Below are positions 3,403 to 17,180 of a stretch of 43,036 nt of DNA, in pieces (position 1 is the first letter of the stretch; every line of letters starts with the position of its first letter). Made by a program: the position numbers and the translations under genes. This DNA comes from Ferrithrix thermotolerans DSM 19514 (lineage in GTDB: Bacteria; Actinomycetota; Acidimicrobiia; Acidimicrobiales; Ilumatobacteraceae), in contig CAMASN010000025.1 in assembly GCA_945861025.1 (NCBI GenBank), positions 1-43,036 of the forward strand, in the 5' to 3' direction. The notes beneath the pieces are model-generated. The model was given only the letters and a program-made list of their open reading frames with translations, had not been told where the DNA came from and did no database searches.

Positions 3403-4869
3403 ATGCGCAACAGGCTGTCAATAGTGGTGGCTGCAGGTTGTCTTGTGGCCGCCGCATGCAGTTCAACCGACCCCGGCCTCAGTATCAGCCGCTCACGGTC
3501 GCTCGTTACGCCCAGCGCAGACTCGTCTCTCCCTGGAATGACAACTCCAACGGCAACGCCGAGCACCCAAACCGATGCCAATGACGTCACTGTCAACTTC
3601 GGCACAGATCGCACCCCAAAGGAATACGACAGCTACCTGAACAACGTCGTTGCCGATATTCAAGACTTCTGGCGAGCCGAATTCCCGAAAATCTACGACG
3701 AGCCATACCGCGAGTTCAGTGGCGGCTTCTTCGCGATGTATCCATCTCGCTCTGACGATGTCGAAGTGTGCGACAAGAAGCTCGCCTTCGACGAGATCGC
3801 AGACAATGCTCGCTACTTCAGTTGCGGTGACATCATTGCCTGGGACGATGACAAGCTGCTGCCAGATCTCGCTGCGCAGCTCGGCACGAGCGCCGTTGCC
3901 ACCGTCATCGCCCACGAGTTTGGGCATGCGATCCAACAGCGCGCTGGCATCTTGGATGTGCAGCACCCAACGGTGGTCACCGAGCAACAAGCCGACTGCT
4001 TCGCTGGGGCCTGGTCAGCGCACGCAGCCCGCGGCGAATCGAGCCTTGTGACCTTCACCGATTCCGAAGTCAAAGCCGGGCTCGCGGCGATGGTGCTCGT
4101 GCGCGACCCACTCGATCCAACGATTGGCGAGACCGTCTTTGAAGAGGGCGGACACGGCACAGCGTTCGATCGGGTCGGCGCTTTTCAGCACGGTTTCATC
4201 GGTGGAGCCCAAGCATGCAAACCGCTCATCGACACTCCCCTGCCGTTGATCAACCTCACGTTCACGTCAAACGCCGATATCGCTAATCAGGGCAACATGC
4301 CGTACGAAAACCTTCAGAACAGCCTGACCGATGACCTTCAGCGGTTTTGGTCGGCCACGTTCACCGCTAACCAGTTCACCTTTCAAGCGCCCACGGTCAT
4401 TGCCTATAACCACGACGGCCCCTACCCGACATGCGACGGCATCACGGCAGCGCTTTGGAGAGCAAACGTGATCTACTGCCCGAGCATCAACTTGATCGCG
4501 TACGACAACGACTTCGCGATCAATCTCTACAGCAACTACGGAGACTTCTCGATTGGCTACCTCTTCAGCAATGCATGGGGCGATGCCGTGCAGACTCAGC
4601 TCAACAGCACCCTTACGGGCAAAGACCGAGCCTTGATGAACGACTGTCTCACCGGAGTGTGGACCAAAGACATCGTCCCGATCGGCTCACAGAGTCAGCC
4701 GTTTGCAATCTCTCCCGGCGACCTCGACGAAGTCATTACAACGGCGCTGATCATCGACGACATCACTGGCCGGCCGCCAGCGGCCAGCGCGTTCGACAGG
4801 ATCAACACCTTTCGAAACGGCGTGCTCGACGGACTGGGCGAATGCACCAAGCGCCTCGCCGTCGACTGA
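3403..4869 (+). CDS. Lipoprotein, putative zinc metallopeptidase with duplicated, degenerate second domain
   Basis: The 488-residue precursor has a lipoprotein signal with a VAAAC lipobox (Cys 19), then a Ser/Thr-rich linker to about residue 62. The first domain (about 75-275) has the zinc-peptidase motif HEFGH (171-175) and the EQQADCFAGAW segment (194-204) that carries the third ligand in YpfJ-type neutral zinc metallopeptidases. The second half (about 300-483) repeats this architecture without the metal site. NAWGDAVQ stands where HEFGHAIQ is, NDCLTGVW where ADCFAGAW is, and ASAFDRINTFRNG where TAFDRVGAFQHG is. Only the first half can be catalytic; the second may be regulatory or substrate-binding. 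It would act outside the membrane. The natural substrate is unknown. Confidence 0.8.
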   Translation: MRNRLSIVVAAGCLVAAACSSTDPGLSISRSRSLVTPSADSSLPGMTTPTATPSTQTDANDVTVNFGTDRTPKEYDSYLNNVVADIQDFWRAEFPKIYDEPYREFSGGFFAMYPSRSDDVEVCDKKLAFDEIADNARYFSCGDIIAWDDDKLLPDLAAQLGTSAVATVIAHEFGHAIQQRAGILDVQHPTVVTEQQADCFAGAWSAHAARGESSLVTFTDSEVKAGLAAMVLVRDPLDPTIGETVFEEGGHGTAFDRVGAFQHGFIGGAQACKPLIDTPLPLINLTFTSNADIANQGNMPYENLQNSLTDDLQRFWSATFTANQFTFQAPTVIAYNHDGPYPTCDGITAALWRANVIYCPSINLIAYDNDFAINLYSNYGDFSIGYLFSNAWGDAVQTQLNSTLTGKDRALMNDCLTGVWTKDIVPIGSQSQPFAISPGDLDEVITTALIIDDITGRPPAASAFDRINTFRNGVLDGLGECTKRLAVD

Positions 4870-13817: not shown

Positions 13818-15257
13818 ATGAGCCAGCGCCCAACCCTGCCGAACGGACTCGTTGCGATCGTCAAGCGCGACTGCGCCACATGCCTGATGGTCACGCCGGT
13901 GCTTGCTCGCATCGCGGCCGAAGTTGGACTCACCGTCTACACGCAAGACGACCCGACCTTTCCTGTCGACCCCGCTGCGATCCACGACGCCGACCTCTCG
14001 GTCAGTTGGCACCACGAGATCGAGACAGTGCCCACCTTGATCCGCGTCATCGACGGCCAAGAAGTAGATCGCACCGTGGGCTGGAGCCGCGCTGCATGGC
14101 AGGCGCTCACCGGAATCGATGATCTCGGCAGCGACCTCAGCGTGATGCGTCCCGGATGCGGTTCACTCTCGGTTGATCCCAACCTCGAAGACGAACTCCG
14201 CGCTCGTTTCAGCGGCAGCGTGTTGCGGGCGCGGCGGGTTGAGATTGCCGACGCCGAAGACGAGATCGAGGCATTGTTCAATCGCGGCTGGACCGACGGC
14301 TTGCCCGTAGTGCCGCCAACCGAAGCCCGCGTATTGCGGATGTTGGCCGGCACCAACCGCGCGCCTAGCGACATCGTGGCAATTGTGCCTCCCGATCTCA
14401 TCGAGGTCACGGTCGAGAAAGTTGCAATCAACGCCGTCATGGCAGGCTGTCTTCCCGAGTACTTCCCGTGGGTGCTCGCCGCGCTCGAGGCCGCATGCAC
14501 CAACGAGTTCAACATTCACGGCGTGCTGGCCACCACCATGCCCGTGGGTCCCGTTGTCATCTGCAACGGTCCAGGCACGCGCGACATCGGCATGAACTCA
14601 GGGATGAACGTGCTCGGCCAAGGCAACCGCGCCAACCTCACTATCGGCCGCGCCTTGCAACTCGTCATCCGCAACGTGGGTGGCGGTCGCCCCGGCGAGG
14701 TAGACCGCGCCACACACGGAAATCCTGGCAAGCTCAGCTTTTGTTTCGCAGAAGACGAACTCGGTTCGCCGTGGTCATCGCTGGCGGCCGCTCGCGGGAT
14801 TGCCGATGGCGCCGATGCCGTTACGGTCTTCGCTGGCGAAGGGCCGCGTTGCGTTGTCGATCAACTCGCCCGCGACCCTGACAGCTTGGCCAACACCTTC
14901 GCGAGCTGCCTGCGTACGTTGCATAACCCCAAGCTGGTCTTGGCGTTCGACGCGGTCATCATCATCGGCCCCGAGCATGCCCGCGTGTTCAGCGATGCCG
15001 GATGGGATCGCGAGCGCGTGCTCCAAGAGATCCACTCACGGCTACAGATCAGCGGCACCGACCTCGCACGAGGCGCTCACGGCATCGCCGAAGGCATTCC
15101 TGGCCATCTTGAGCATCTCACCCTGCCCAAGTTCAGACCCGACGGGTTGCTGCTGGTTCACGCGGGCGGCGGGGCCGGCATGTTCTCTGTCATCATCGGC
15201 GGTTGGGCCAATGGCGAGGTCGGCAGCCAACCCGTCACCCACGCCGTGCGATACTGA
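13818..15257 (+). CDS. Two-domain protein: thioredoxin-like CxxC domain plus uncharacterised UGSC-associated domain
   Basis: The 479-residue protein starts with a thioredoxin-like fold (about 1-100): Cys19-Ala-Thr-Cys22 follows the first strand and a Val-Pro-Thr cis-proline loop lies near residue 76. The remaining 340 residues form a domain I do not know functionally. Striking segments are RGWTDGLPVVPPTE (about 157-170), AVMAGCLPEYFPW, NGPGTRDIGMNSGMNVLGQGN and HAGGGAGMFSVIIGGW. I recall similar proteins as neighbours of UGSC proteins, without a known reaction. The stop lies 37 bp before the selenoprotein ATG, so they form a unit. A redox relay between the CxxC and the Sec/Cys centre of the partner is an inference. 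Confidence 0.75.
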   Translation: MSQRPTLPNGLVAIVKRDCATCLMVTPVLARIAAEVGLTVYTQDDPTFPVDPAAIHDADLSVSWHHEIETVPTLIRVIDGQEVDRTVGWSRAAWQALTGIDDLGSDLSVMRPGCGSLSVDPNLEDELRARFSGSVLRARRVEIADAEDEIEALFNRGWTDGLPVVPPTEARVLRMLAGTNRAPSDIVAIVPPDLIEVTVEKVAINAVMAGCLPEYFPWVLAALEAACTNEFNIHGVLATTMPVGPVVICNGPGTRDIGMNSGMNVLGQGNRANLTIGRALQLVIRNVGGGRPGEVDRATHGNPGKLSFCFAEDELGSPWSSLAAARGIADGADAVTVFAGEGPRCVVDQLARDPDSLANTFASCLRTLHNPKLVLAFDAVIIIGPEHARVFSDAGWDRERVLQEIHSRLQISGTDLARGAHGIAEGIPGHLEHLTLPKFRPDGLLLVHAGGGAGMFSVIIGGWANGEVGSQPVTHAVRY

Positions 15258-15294
15258 CCACAACGATTGCTGCAATGACTGAAGGAGCCTGCTC

Positions 15295-15825
15295 ATGAGC
15301 GCAGTTCTGCTCGACCCAACCAACGAACGACGCGTGGCAGAGATCACCCGCTTGACGCGCCCGGCATCGCTCGCTGGCCTCACGATTGGTCTGCTCGATA
15401 TTTCCAAAGCCCGCGGCGACGTGTTCTTGAATCGACTCGAAACGCGCCTCGTCGCAATCGGTGCCGAGGTCAAGCGGTTTCGAAAGCCCACGTTCACCAA
15501 ACCGGCTCCAGTAGACCTTCGCCACGAGATCGCCAGCCAGTGTCACGTGGTCATCGAAGCGCTCGCCGATTGAGGTAGTTGTACGTCGTGCAGTGTGCAC
15601 GACATCGTTGATCTCGAGCGCCGAGGTATACCCGGCGTGTTTGTCGCCTCTGGCGAATTTGTCACTGCTGCCGAATCGCAATCGAAATCATTGGGCTTCC
15701 CAACGGTGGCTCGCGTGTTCACTCCGCACCCCATCCAAGATCGCACCGATGACGAAATGTCGGCCTATGCCGACGCTGCATTCGATGAGATCGTGGCAGC
15801 CATTACAGCCACGCAGGCGCCGTAA
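15295..15825 (+). CDS. UGSC-type selenoprotein (Sec encoded by in-frame TGA at 15571-15573)
   Basis: One continuous frame runs from ATG 15295 to TAA 15825 except for TGA at codon 93. The protein reads Ala-Leu-Ala-Asp-[TGA]-Gly-Ser-Cys-Thr-Ser-Cys-Ser-Val-His-Asp, and the sequence on both sides is coherent, ending Pro-Tyr-free after 176 residues. This is the Sec-Gly-Ser-Cys signature of the UGSC family, whose members carry Sec or Cys there. Sec93, Cys96 and Cys99 form the probable redox centre. N-terminal (15295-15573) and C-terminal (15595-15825) pieces would otherwise look like two orphan genes. A clear ribosome site (AAGGAG, 15282-15287) precedes the ATG. A hairpin sits right after the TGA. 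The function is unknown; a redox role with the upstream CxxC protein is likely. The alternative, a nonsense mutation, is less probable. Confidence 0.85.
15571..15605 (+). promoter_or_regulatory. Sec TGA codon with bacterial SECIS-like hairpin
   Basis: TGA at 15571-15573 is followed after 11 bases by a perfect 7-bp stem (GTCGTGC 15585-15591 with GCACGAC 15597-15603), plus an A-T pair beyond one mismatch. The loop is AGTGT, with G at its second position. The 18 bases between TGA and the loop fall in the range described for bacterial SECIS elements (about 16-37), which also need a G in the first two loop positions. Folding and SelB binding were not tested. Confidence 0.65.
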
Positions 15826-15837
15826 CCCCACGCCCGC

Positions 15838-16677
15838 TTATGGGTGCCGATACCACTGGTTATTGAGCACCACGAGTCCGTCGGCAAGCAACGTTGCTGC
15901 GACGCGGCCAGCCCGCTCGTGTTGATCGGGCCAACCCATCACTTGGGCAAGGCGCTGTGCCGGCACCGGCCCATCTGCAATCGCCCTCATCAGCCGACCG
16001 CGTCCCTGGCGATCGGACCCAACGAACCGGCTCTGGCGCGTACTCACGCCGGCCGACCCAATCGCAGGATCATCGCCAGTGCCCCGCCATGCGCAGCGCG
16101 ACGCGAGCGGGCACGAATCGCACGCCGGATTCAGCGGACGACACAGTGTTGCGCCAAGGTCCATAAGGCACTGGTTCCAAGCCCACGAATGCCCAACTGG
16201 CAACGCTGTATCGGCCGCAACTTGCACCTGTCGCGCTGTGAGCGACACCCCGCCGACGCGCGCATATACGCGCGCGATATTGGTATCGACCACCGCCGCA
16301 TCACGCTCAAAGGCAAACGCCATCACCGCTCGCGCCGTGTACGCGCCGACACCTGGCAAGGCAAGTAGTTCGTCGAGCGTGCTGGGAAATTCGCCCAGTG
16401 CGCAAATCTGCTGCGCAGCAAGCTGCAAGTTTCGCGCCCGTCGGGGGTAACCCAATCCGAGCCACAGTTCAAGCACATCGCCCAATGCAGCGTCGGCGCA
16501 CTGCGAGGGTGTCGCATACGCCGCCATAAACGCGTGCCATTTCGGGATCACCCGATGGGCCTGCGTCTGCTGCAACATGACCTCGCTCACGAGTACTGCC
16601 CACGGGTCACGGGTATGTCGCCACGGCAGGTCGCGCAGCTGCGGCAACCCCCAATTCAGGAGGGCTTGTTGGTCCAC
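15838..16677 (-). CDS. mutY: A/G-specific adenine DNA glycosylase (short form)
   Basis: The 279-residue MutY removes adenine mispaired with 8-oxoguanine. Visible features are the catalytic Glu 32 in SEVMLQQTQ, the helix-hairpin-helix LPGVGAYTARA (107-117), the catalytic Asp 131 in VVDTNIARV, and the 4Fe-4S loop Cys179-x6-Cys186-x2-Cys189-x5-Cys195. The C-terminal region is short (about 80 residues) and shows no clear NUDIX-like 8-oxoG recognition domain, as in many actinobacterial MutY proteins. The start is GTG 16677, which overlaps the end of the upstream MaoC gene by 22 bp, suggesting co-transcription. Confidence 0.9.
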   Translation of the reverse strand: MDQQALLNWGLPQLRDLPWRHTRDPWAVLVSEVMLQQTQAHRVIPKWHAFMAAYATPSQCADAALGDVLELWLGLGYPRRARNLQLAAQQICALGEFPSTLDELLALPGVGAYTARAVMAFAFERDAAVVDTNIARVYARVGGVSLTARQVQVAADTALPVGHSWAWNQCLMDLGATLCRPLNPACDSCPLASRCAWRGTGDDPAIGSAGVSTRQSRFVGSDRQGRGRLMRAIADGPVPAQRLAQVMGWPDQHERAGRVAATLLADGLVVLNNQWYRHP

Positions 16678-17180
16678 ACGTCTTGGCCGTCGTATGGACG
16701 ACGACGTGCCGGGGCGAAGTCACGCTTCCAGACCATCACCCGACGACGGAAGTAGCACACTTCTTTGCCGTCTTGGTTGAAGCCCTTGGTCTCGACGAGC
16801 ACCGTGCCGCGATCATTCTTCGATGAGGACTCTTTCACTTCGAGCACCCGGGTCTCAGCGTGAATGGTGTCGCCATGAAAGGTGGGGAACTTGTGCTGCA
16901 AGGTCTCGACCTCGAGGTTGGCGATAGCTGCCCCGCTGACATCGGGCACGCTCATGCCAAGGCACAACGAGTACACCAAGTTGCCCACAACCACGTTGCG
17001 ACCCTGAACGCTTTCGCTCGCGAACCAATCGTTGGTATGCAACGGGTGGTGGTTCATCGTGATCATGCAAAACAGGTGATCGTCGTACTCGGTGATGGTC
17101 TTTCCAGGCCAATGCTTATAAATGTCGTCAACGACGAAGTCTTCGAGACAGCGACCAAAGGGGCGTTCGTAAATGCTCAT
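16656..17180 (-). CDS. mch: MaoC-like hydratase, probable mesaconyl-CoA hydratase
   Basis: The 174-residue single hot-dog-fold MaoC protein has a TITEYDDHLFCMITMNHHPLH segment (about 28-48) holding the usual Asp/His hydratase pair, then GNLVYSLCLGMS and PTFHGDTIHAETRV. The pattern matches MaoC proteins found with ethylmalonyl-CoA genes in actinobacteria, where the enzyme would hydrate mesaconyl-CoA to beta-methylmalyl-CoA. The other enzymes flanking this step (mcd at 21028, lyase at 23405) are in the window, which strengthens the assignment. A TAGCGT box lies 7 bases before the ATG. A generic enoyl-CoA hydratase remains possible. Confidence 0.75.
   Translation of the reverse strand: MSIYERPFGRCLEDFVVDDIYKHWPGKTITEYDDHLFCMITMNHHPLHTNDWFASESVQGRNVVVGNLVYSLCLGMSVPDVSGAAIANLEVETLQHKFPTFHGDTIHAETRVLEVKESSSKNDRGTVLVETKGFNQDGKEVCYFRRRVMVWKRDFAPARRRPYDGQDVWTNKPS

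Follow-up and report, generated by a model that had tools for sequence, protein, structure and literature searches.

At positions 15295 to 15825 of the window (the whole 43,036-nucleotide stretch of contig CAMASN010000025.1 that was analysed) we identified a single reading frame that runs from an ATG at 15295 to a TAA at 15823-15825 and is interrupted only by the TGA at 15571-15573 (Table 1). The sequence-only reading of this DNA had taken the two apparent small genes on either side of the TGA for one split gene, and the window sequence bears this out, with one frame of 176 residues and the TGA at codon 93. That reading also placed the second ORF in the same frame, which holds, and nine codons beyond the TGA, which does not: GTG 15595 is the eighth codon after it, so seven lie between. 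This GTG is codon 101 (Val101) of the read-through frame and falls partly within the loop of a predicted hairpin. An ordinary gene finder splits the gene at its TGA.

The read-through product has U93 in the context ...EALAD-U-GSCTSC... and matches the profile NF041046 "UGSC family (seleno)protein" with 163.7 bits (cut-off 125) over positions 2-146 of 147, and PF24696 with 156.5 bits (cut-off 25) over positions 2-171 of 172. Both matches extend across residue 93, and the [U/C]GSC motif stands at the family position as AD-U-GSCTSC, in agreement with the proposed assignment to the UGSC family. The sequence-only reading had further asked whether Cys homologues align across residue 93; two Cys-containing paralogues (L071, with CGSCTAY, and L080, with CGSCTSW) do. 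Judged from sequence, 15295-15825 is almost certainly one intact UGSC selenoprotein gene in which UGA93 would be read as selenocysteine (Sec). The near-full profile match, the UGSC motif with TGA and a SECIS-type hairpin are common to this protein and the UGSC-containing selenoprotein family (NF041046, PF24696; PMC2398784), and the gene is thus a further case of a family already in print since 2008.

Table 1. Features of the UGSC locus and of the second predicted selenoprotein gene in the genome
Feature	Coordinates	Strand	Remarks
Partner gene, 479 aa; N-terminal thioredoxin domain (Cys19-Ala-Thr-Cys22) and ~370-aa region	13818..15257	+	Ends 37 nt 5' of the UGSC gene
AAGGAG, likely ribosome-binding site of the UGSC gene	15282..15287	+	7 nt 5' of ATG 15295; read from sequence
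UGSC family selenoprotein gene, 176 aa, predicted Sec at residue 93, stop TAA	15295..15825	+	NF041046, PF24696, TGA of orthologues
In-frame TGA, codon 93; predicted Sec93, first position of the UGSC (UxxC) motif	15571..15573	+	TGA in 123/123 orthologous rows, Cys codon in none
Predicted bacterial SECIS-type hairpin; 8-bp stem 15585-15592/15596-15603, loop GTG 15593-15595	15585..15603	+	Folding, conservation, compensatory changes
MaoC-like hydratase (PF01575, PF19315)	16656-17180		Near the UGSC gene in 48/80 loci (best 80 of 551 relatives)
FdhA-like second predicted selenoprotein	G000:C17:5314-7185 (in L173), this genome		TGA in Sec motif NIDSCNRT-U-HAPSVVG

As orthologous rows we counted tblastn matches with an E-value of at most 1e-30 that span residues 80-115. 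They come from two sets of sequences, one being genomes of the same bacterial family and the other 80 named contigs, which are the best 80 of 551 relatives obtained via two short patterns. The titles of these 80 contigs mostly indicate Ilumatobacteraceae and other Acidimicrobiia, and L115 and L135 are the orthologues of the cultured relatives Ilumatobacter nonamiensis and Desertimonas flava. Some genomes are counted twice among the 123 rows, which comprise 103 distinct windows at the motif, and every row matches the pattern TGA-GGN-(Ser/Ala)-TGY. In the search of 150 genomes of the bacterial family, each listed row with at least 64% identity that covers residue 93 has at least one internal TGA. 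One row without a stop (G078, 58% identity) is part of a copy split over two frames, with the TGA in its other part. A second Sec was considered for rows listed with two TGAs and rejected after 12 such loci were fetched: in six (L021, L050, L051, L053, L054 and L056) the second TGA, at position 170-174, is the normal C-terminal stop, and in the other six (L003, L028, L052, L055, L057 and L058) the sequence shown contains a single TGA and breaks off ahead of any second. Viral contigs yielded no relative with two short patterns, one of which requires a Cys codon where the UGSC gene has TGA.

No further stop occurs in codons 94-167 among the 122 sequences long enough to cover them. Compared with the closest relative (L002, 92% DNA identity), codons 94-170 differ by 15 synonymous and no non-synonymous changes, and seven more distant relatives give dN/dS values of 0.02-0.13 for the part behind the TGA, with dS saturated for an eighth (L089). 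The median ratio over 3451 pairs is 0.24 for the codons preceding the TGA and 0.26 for those following it, which means that both halves are similarly constrained. By these codon comparisons, the stretch downstream of the TGA is under strong purifying selection.

The predicted hairpin, GUCGUGCA-GUG-UGCACGAC in RNA, extends from +14 to +32 after the TGA. Its complete stem can form in 88 of 94 distinct orthologous windows of 54 nt and the inner 6 bp in all 94. The pair +17/+29 is GC in 86 of these windows, AT in six and GT in two, and +15/+31 is an A-A mismatch in six. The hairpin codons show a compensatory change from TCG/CAC to TCA/CAT. Among 96 orthologous genes (from 105 distinct full-length windows, after nine not above 60% identity were dropped), codons 92, 97, 99, 100, 101 and 103 are invariant, five of them within the hairpin region, and the mean excess codon identity is 0.51 in codons 97-103 versus 0.06 elsewhere.

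These codons bear on the explanation that a Cys gene was hit by a nonsense mutation or by a sequencing or assembly error, which would make the locus a pseudogene. Such an error could be suspected in this fragmented draft of 104 contigs (95.6% completeness), but the orthologues share the TGA across many assemblies, selection has purified the codons behind it and the hairpin codons are nearly frozen. Together these observations refute the explanation, to which we assign a negligible probability.

Paralogues were also informative about the hairpin. Sec paralogues in which Cys99 is replaced by Trp (TGC to TGG) have a codon 101 that ends in C, not G, and the pair +20/+26 is flipped from CG to GC in five of seven paralogue windows, which were picked from 19 listed because they keep the stretch S-[VLI]-H-D. 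The main-group stem is absent in eight UGSCTSG paralogues (L075, L076, L078, L082, L083 and L086-L088), in L081 and L084, and in the Cys paralogues L071 and L080. The eight retain TGA, and another form of SECIS is therefore expected in them. L080 can form an alternative 8-bp stem in a different register though it codes for Cys, so a stem as such is no proof of Sec. Nor would folding energy alone prove the hairpin, as it is unremarkable (z of -1.27 against dinucleotide shuffles, 20 of 200 of which fold equally well). Synonymous resampling produced the stem in 1771 of 200000 trials. The case is made by conservation and compensation, which support the hairpin as a putative SECIS element of the kind expected in bacteria.

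The sequence-only reading had pointed to selA, selB, selC and selD as genes to be looked for. We found selB (289.5 bits, over its cut-off) at C28:36664-37725, directly behind selA (373.1 bits, over its cut-off). The selA gene is cut by the end of contig C28 and lacks profile positions 1-83. A selD gene is present but split over two contig ends, in pieces of 96.3 and 77.5 bits that each fall below the cut-off of 125: the first 86 profile positions lie at the end of C5 (...TEWTSCGGCAAK...) and positions 220-310 at the end of C59. We take the start fragment on C5 to be the Cys form. The fourth gene, selC, is absent from this draft assembly; the best RF01852 (tRNA-Sec) match scores 46.8 bits against a cut-off of 47 and is tRNA-Gly according to ARAGORN, and the six best matches in the genome are all ordinary tRNAs. 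The Sec pathway is therefore incomplete in this assembly, given the missing tRNA-Sec and the truncation of selA and selD at contig ends. A tRNA-Sec is found in six of the nine genomes of the genus, and ARAGORN agrees for the three checked (G068, G021 and G040). Of two pieces of G068, the closest relative, the 6 kb around its selC find no counterpart in this assembly whereas a control piece with the UGSC gene does, which makes a gap in the draft assembly the likely cause of the missing tRNA-Sec. On one contig a tRNA located between UGSC and selB (L089:5699-5794) scores 63.6 bits as tRNA-Sec in Rfam and is called tRNA-Phe(aaa) by ARAGORN.

The second predicted selenoprotein of this genome resembles formate dehydrogenase FdhA (TIGR01591), a molybdopterin enzyme unrelated to the UGSC protein. 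Its frame aligns to TIGR01591 from profile position 52 onward and scores 628.5 bits, short of the 666.25 that the profile requires. FdhA-like matches with one TGA and more than 600 bits occur in six of the nine genus genomes, none of them over the family cut-off.

A conserved read-through TGA is by itself silent on the residue inserted, and with tRNA-Sec absent from the assembly the codon might instead be decoded as Trp or Cys, either because the genetic code is altered or by simple readthrough. A change of code was rejected, as TGA is the ordinary stop of nine of the 12 listed ORFs of the window. More generally, the genome has SelA, SelB and an FdhA-like frame with TGA at the Sec motif, the TGA of the UGSC gene is followed by a SECIS-type hairpin, and the homologues without TGA (L071 and L080) carry Cys at this position. 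We consider insertion of another residue very improbable and retain the reading of UGA93 as Sec.

UGSC matches were detected in 109 of 150 genomes of the same bacterial family, four of which have a distant paralogue only. In a sample of 80 genomes across the phylum the family was found in five, three of them from the same bacterial family, and all six matches have TGA. The expectation that such selenoproteins are rare in actinobacteria thus fits the phylum sample and fails within this bacterial family. By the criterion of selB over its cut-off or tRNA-Sec of at least 55 bits, a threshold set in this analysis (Rfam's own 47 bits for tRNA-Sec would pass 107 of the 150 genomes), one or both of these genes are present in 107 of the 109 genomes that match UGSC versus 10 of the 41 that do not, the other 31 having neither (Fisher p = 4e-21, uncorrected for kinship).

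Directly upstream of the UGSC gene lies a gene for a larger protein, here called the partner. At its N-terminus the partner resembles thioredoxin structures by sequence and also by predicted fold (VIA Z 9.3, rmsd 2.3, 85 residues), and TIGR01068 matches this domain with E=2.3e-4, below the cut-off of that profile. The CxxC motif is present in 67 of 69 aligned partner sequences, the remaining two being gapped there. For the region of about 370 residues that follows, Pfam gave no match with an E of 10 or less. The whole partner has a single Pfam match in that range, TraF (E=0.37, under its cut-off), which falls in the thioredoxin part and was rejected. A likeness of the second domain to class I fumarate hydratases was also discarded, as the weak Foldseek rows behind it (best E=1.8e-3) had a target TM of ~0.2-0.3 and an rmsd above 11, which is too poor.

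Among the 80 named loci (best 80 of 551 relatives), 73 have the partner upstream of UGSC on the same strand. In 70 of the 71 loci that were measured, the two genes are spaced by -7 to +203 nt. In four of the seven loci without a partner match, the contig has fewer than 700 bases upstream of the TGA. It may be that the upstream gene is a mere neighbour, and that the UGSC selenoprotein acts alone or with a general cellular thioredoxin. Consistent with this, three of the 80 loci (L112, L127 and L139) have no partner upstream despite more than 2 kb of sequence there, the partner is 1.1 kb away in L103, and other genes are also kept near UGSC, if in fewer loci (MutY in 49 of these 80; for the MaoC-like hydratase see Table 1). 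Yet the partner stays in place as other neighbours drop out, and a domain related to its second part adjoins UGSC paralogues elsewhere in genomes and is fused to UGSC in one of them. We regard this alternative as a real possibility on the improbable side.

Eight contigs with close UGSC orthologues are titled Bifidobacterium breve, Ferrithrix thermotolerans, Myxococcota or Acidobacteria (L096, L112, L119, L120, L122, L127, L157 and L158). They look mislabelled, because of these close orthologues and since most of them share other neighbours with the window.

At the paralogous loci L070-L088, we found 19 matches to the partner-type second domain beside UGSC in 18 of the 19 loci; L085, which holds a UGSC fragment only, has no such match. 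In L081 (G012:C1, UGSC match 2579-2319, minus strand) the protein has a UGSCTP motif, and the partner-type domain is fused behind UGSC in one frame. Comparable frames of 600-601 aa in G099 and G034 also contain UGSC matches. L073 (G079:C44) has two UGACTSW paralogues, at 1207-1695 and 4354-4839, each with its own partner-type domain. The partners of paralogues can be aligned only from about residue 120 onward, and the four that were scanned gave no thioredoxin match, so the thioredoxin domain of the partner is not general.

CoA-transferases, luciferase-like monooxygenases, enoyl-CoA hydratase, acyl-CoA dehydrogenase and methylmalonyl-CoA mutase are encoded around the UGSC paralogues L175, L176 and L180, and AMP-binding enzymes are likewise among paralogue neighbours. 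These neighbourhoods hint at acyl-CoA metabolism, a lead only, given that the scan covered 20 hand-picked ORFs in six loci with a crude ORF call.

The AlphaFold2 model of the UGSC protein (pLDDT 89.8, pTM 0.85, 51 sequences) is built of five strands that alternate strictly with five helices, and Sec93 is placed between strand 3 and the helix 94-109. When the model was compared with the PDB, many of the top rows were Rossmann-like, flavodoxin-like or receiver proteins (VIA Z 8.7-10.9, 50 rows listed), and in neither PDB comparison does any of the 50 listed rows carry a thioredoxin title. No single row stands out, and therefore no function can be deduced from the fold; a search of solved structures with the UGSC profile gave none with an E of 1 or less. 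The family was suggested to be probably thioredoxin-like in fold in the part of the GOS selenoproteome paper on which we draw (PMC2398784), whereas the predicted model is Rossmann-like with five strands and speaks against a thioredoxin-like fold.

The same portion of PMC2398784 reports a fusion of UGSC to a domain named Unknown_1, comparable with the fusion to a partner-type domain in L081; Unknown_1 is likely the second domain of the partner. It lists UGSC among the most abundant selenoproteins in the GOS water samples (255 sequences) and as the family most used in non-marine samples. That portion gives no known reaction for UGSC proteins, and it holds no mention of a frequent pairing with a separate thioredoxin-domain partner. 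Neither the partner gene nor a Rossmann-like fold is mentioned in the corresponding parts of PMC2398784, PMC13188914, PMC9312934, PMC5029168, PMC1794560 and PMC7176365. The pairing with the upstream gene and the predicted fold are what the present analysis adds.

We propose that Sec93, just before the helix that follows the third strand of the predicted Rossmann-like domain, would form a reversible selenenyl-sulfide with Cys96. The partner protein would bind the UGSC protein, its thioredoxin domain would reduce the Se-S bond through the CxxC motif, and its second domain would complete the active site, the pair acting as a small-molecule oxidoreductase, possibly in organic-acid or acyl-CoA metabolism. 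The idea that the partner binds and reduces the UGSC protein comes from the order of the genes, a single fusion and the presence of CxxC. A Sec93-Cys96 redox pair that is reduced by the thioredoxin domain of the partner seems to us about evenly balanced between right and wrong, and a two-subunit enzyme with a built-in thioredoxin reductant has a chance of half or slightly below.

Selenoprotein subunits that act with other subunits are known from proline and glycine reductase (PrdB/GrdB, PF07355). PrdB has a UxxC motif in the table of PMC2398784, as has the UGSC protein. In a Pfam scan that admitted E-values up to 10, the protein of the window did not match PF07355, which leaves room for distant kinship.

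As a whole, the locus is very probably best explained by a UGSC selenoprotein in which UGA93 is read as Sec, aided by the SECIS hairpin in a SelA/SelB/SelD host, with a partner mechanism that we infer. More tentatively, and with slightly more doubt than trust, we suggest that UGSC is the selenol-carrying subunit of an undescribed class of two-subunit oxidoreductases with a constant partner domain that belongs to no Pfam family and to which, in this bacterial branch, a thioredoxin domain that re-reduces the Se-S bond is fused, and that paralogous pairs, in which the partners differ, may act on different, perhaps acyl-CoA-linked, substrates. The frequent thioredoxin-domain partner makes the function of UGSC testable. 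UGSC closely tracks Sec decoding in this bacterial family, and the gene may therefore help to explain, next to FdhA, why the family has retained the trait.
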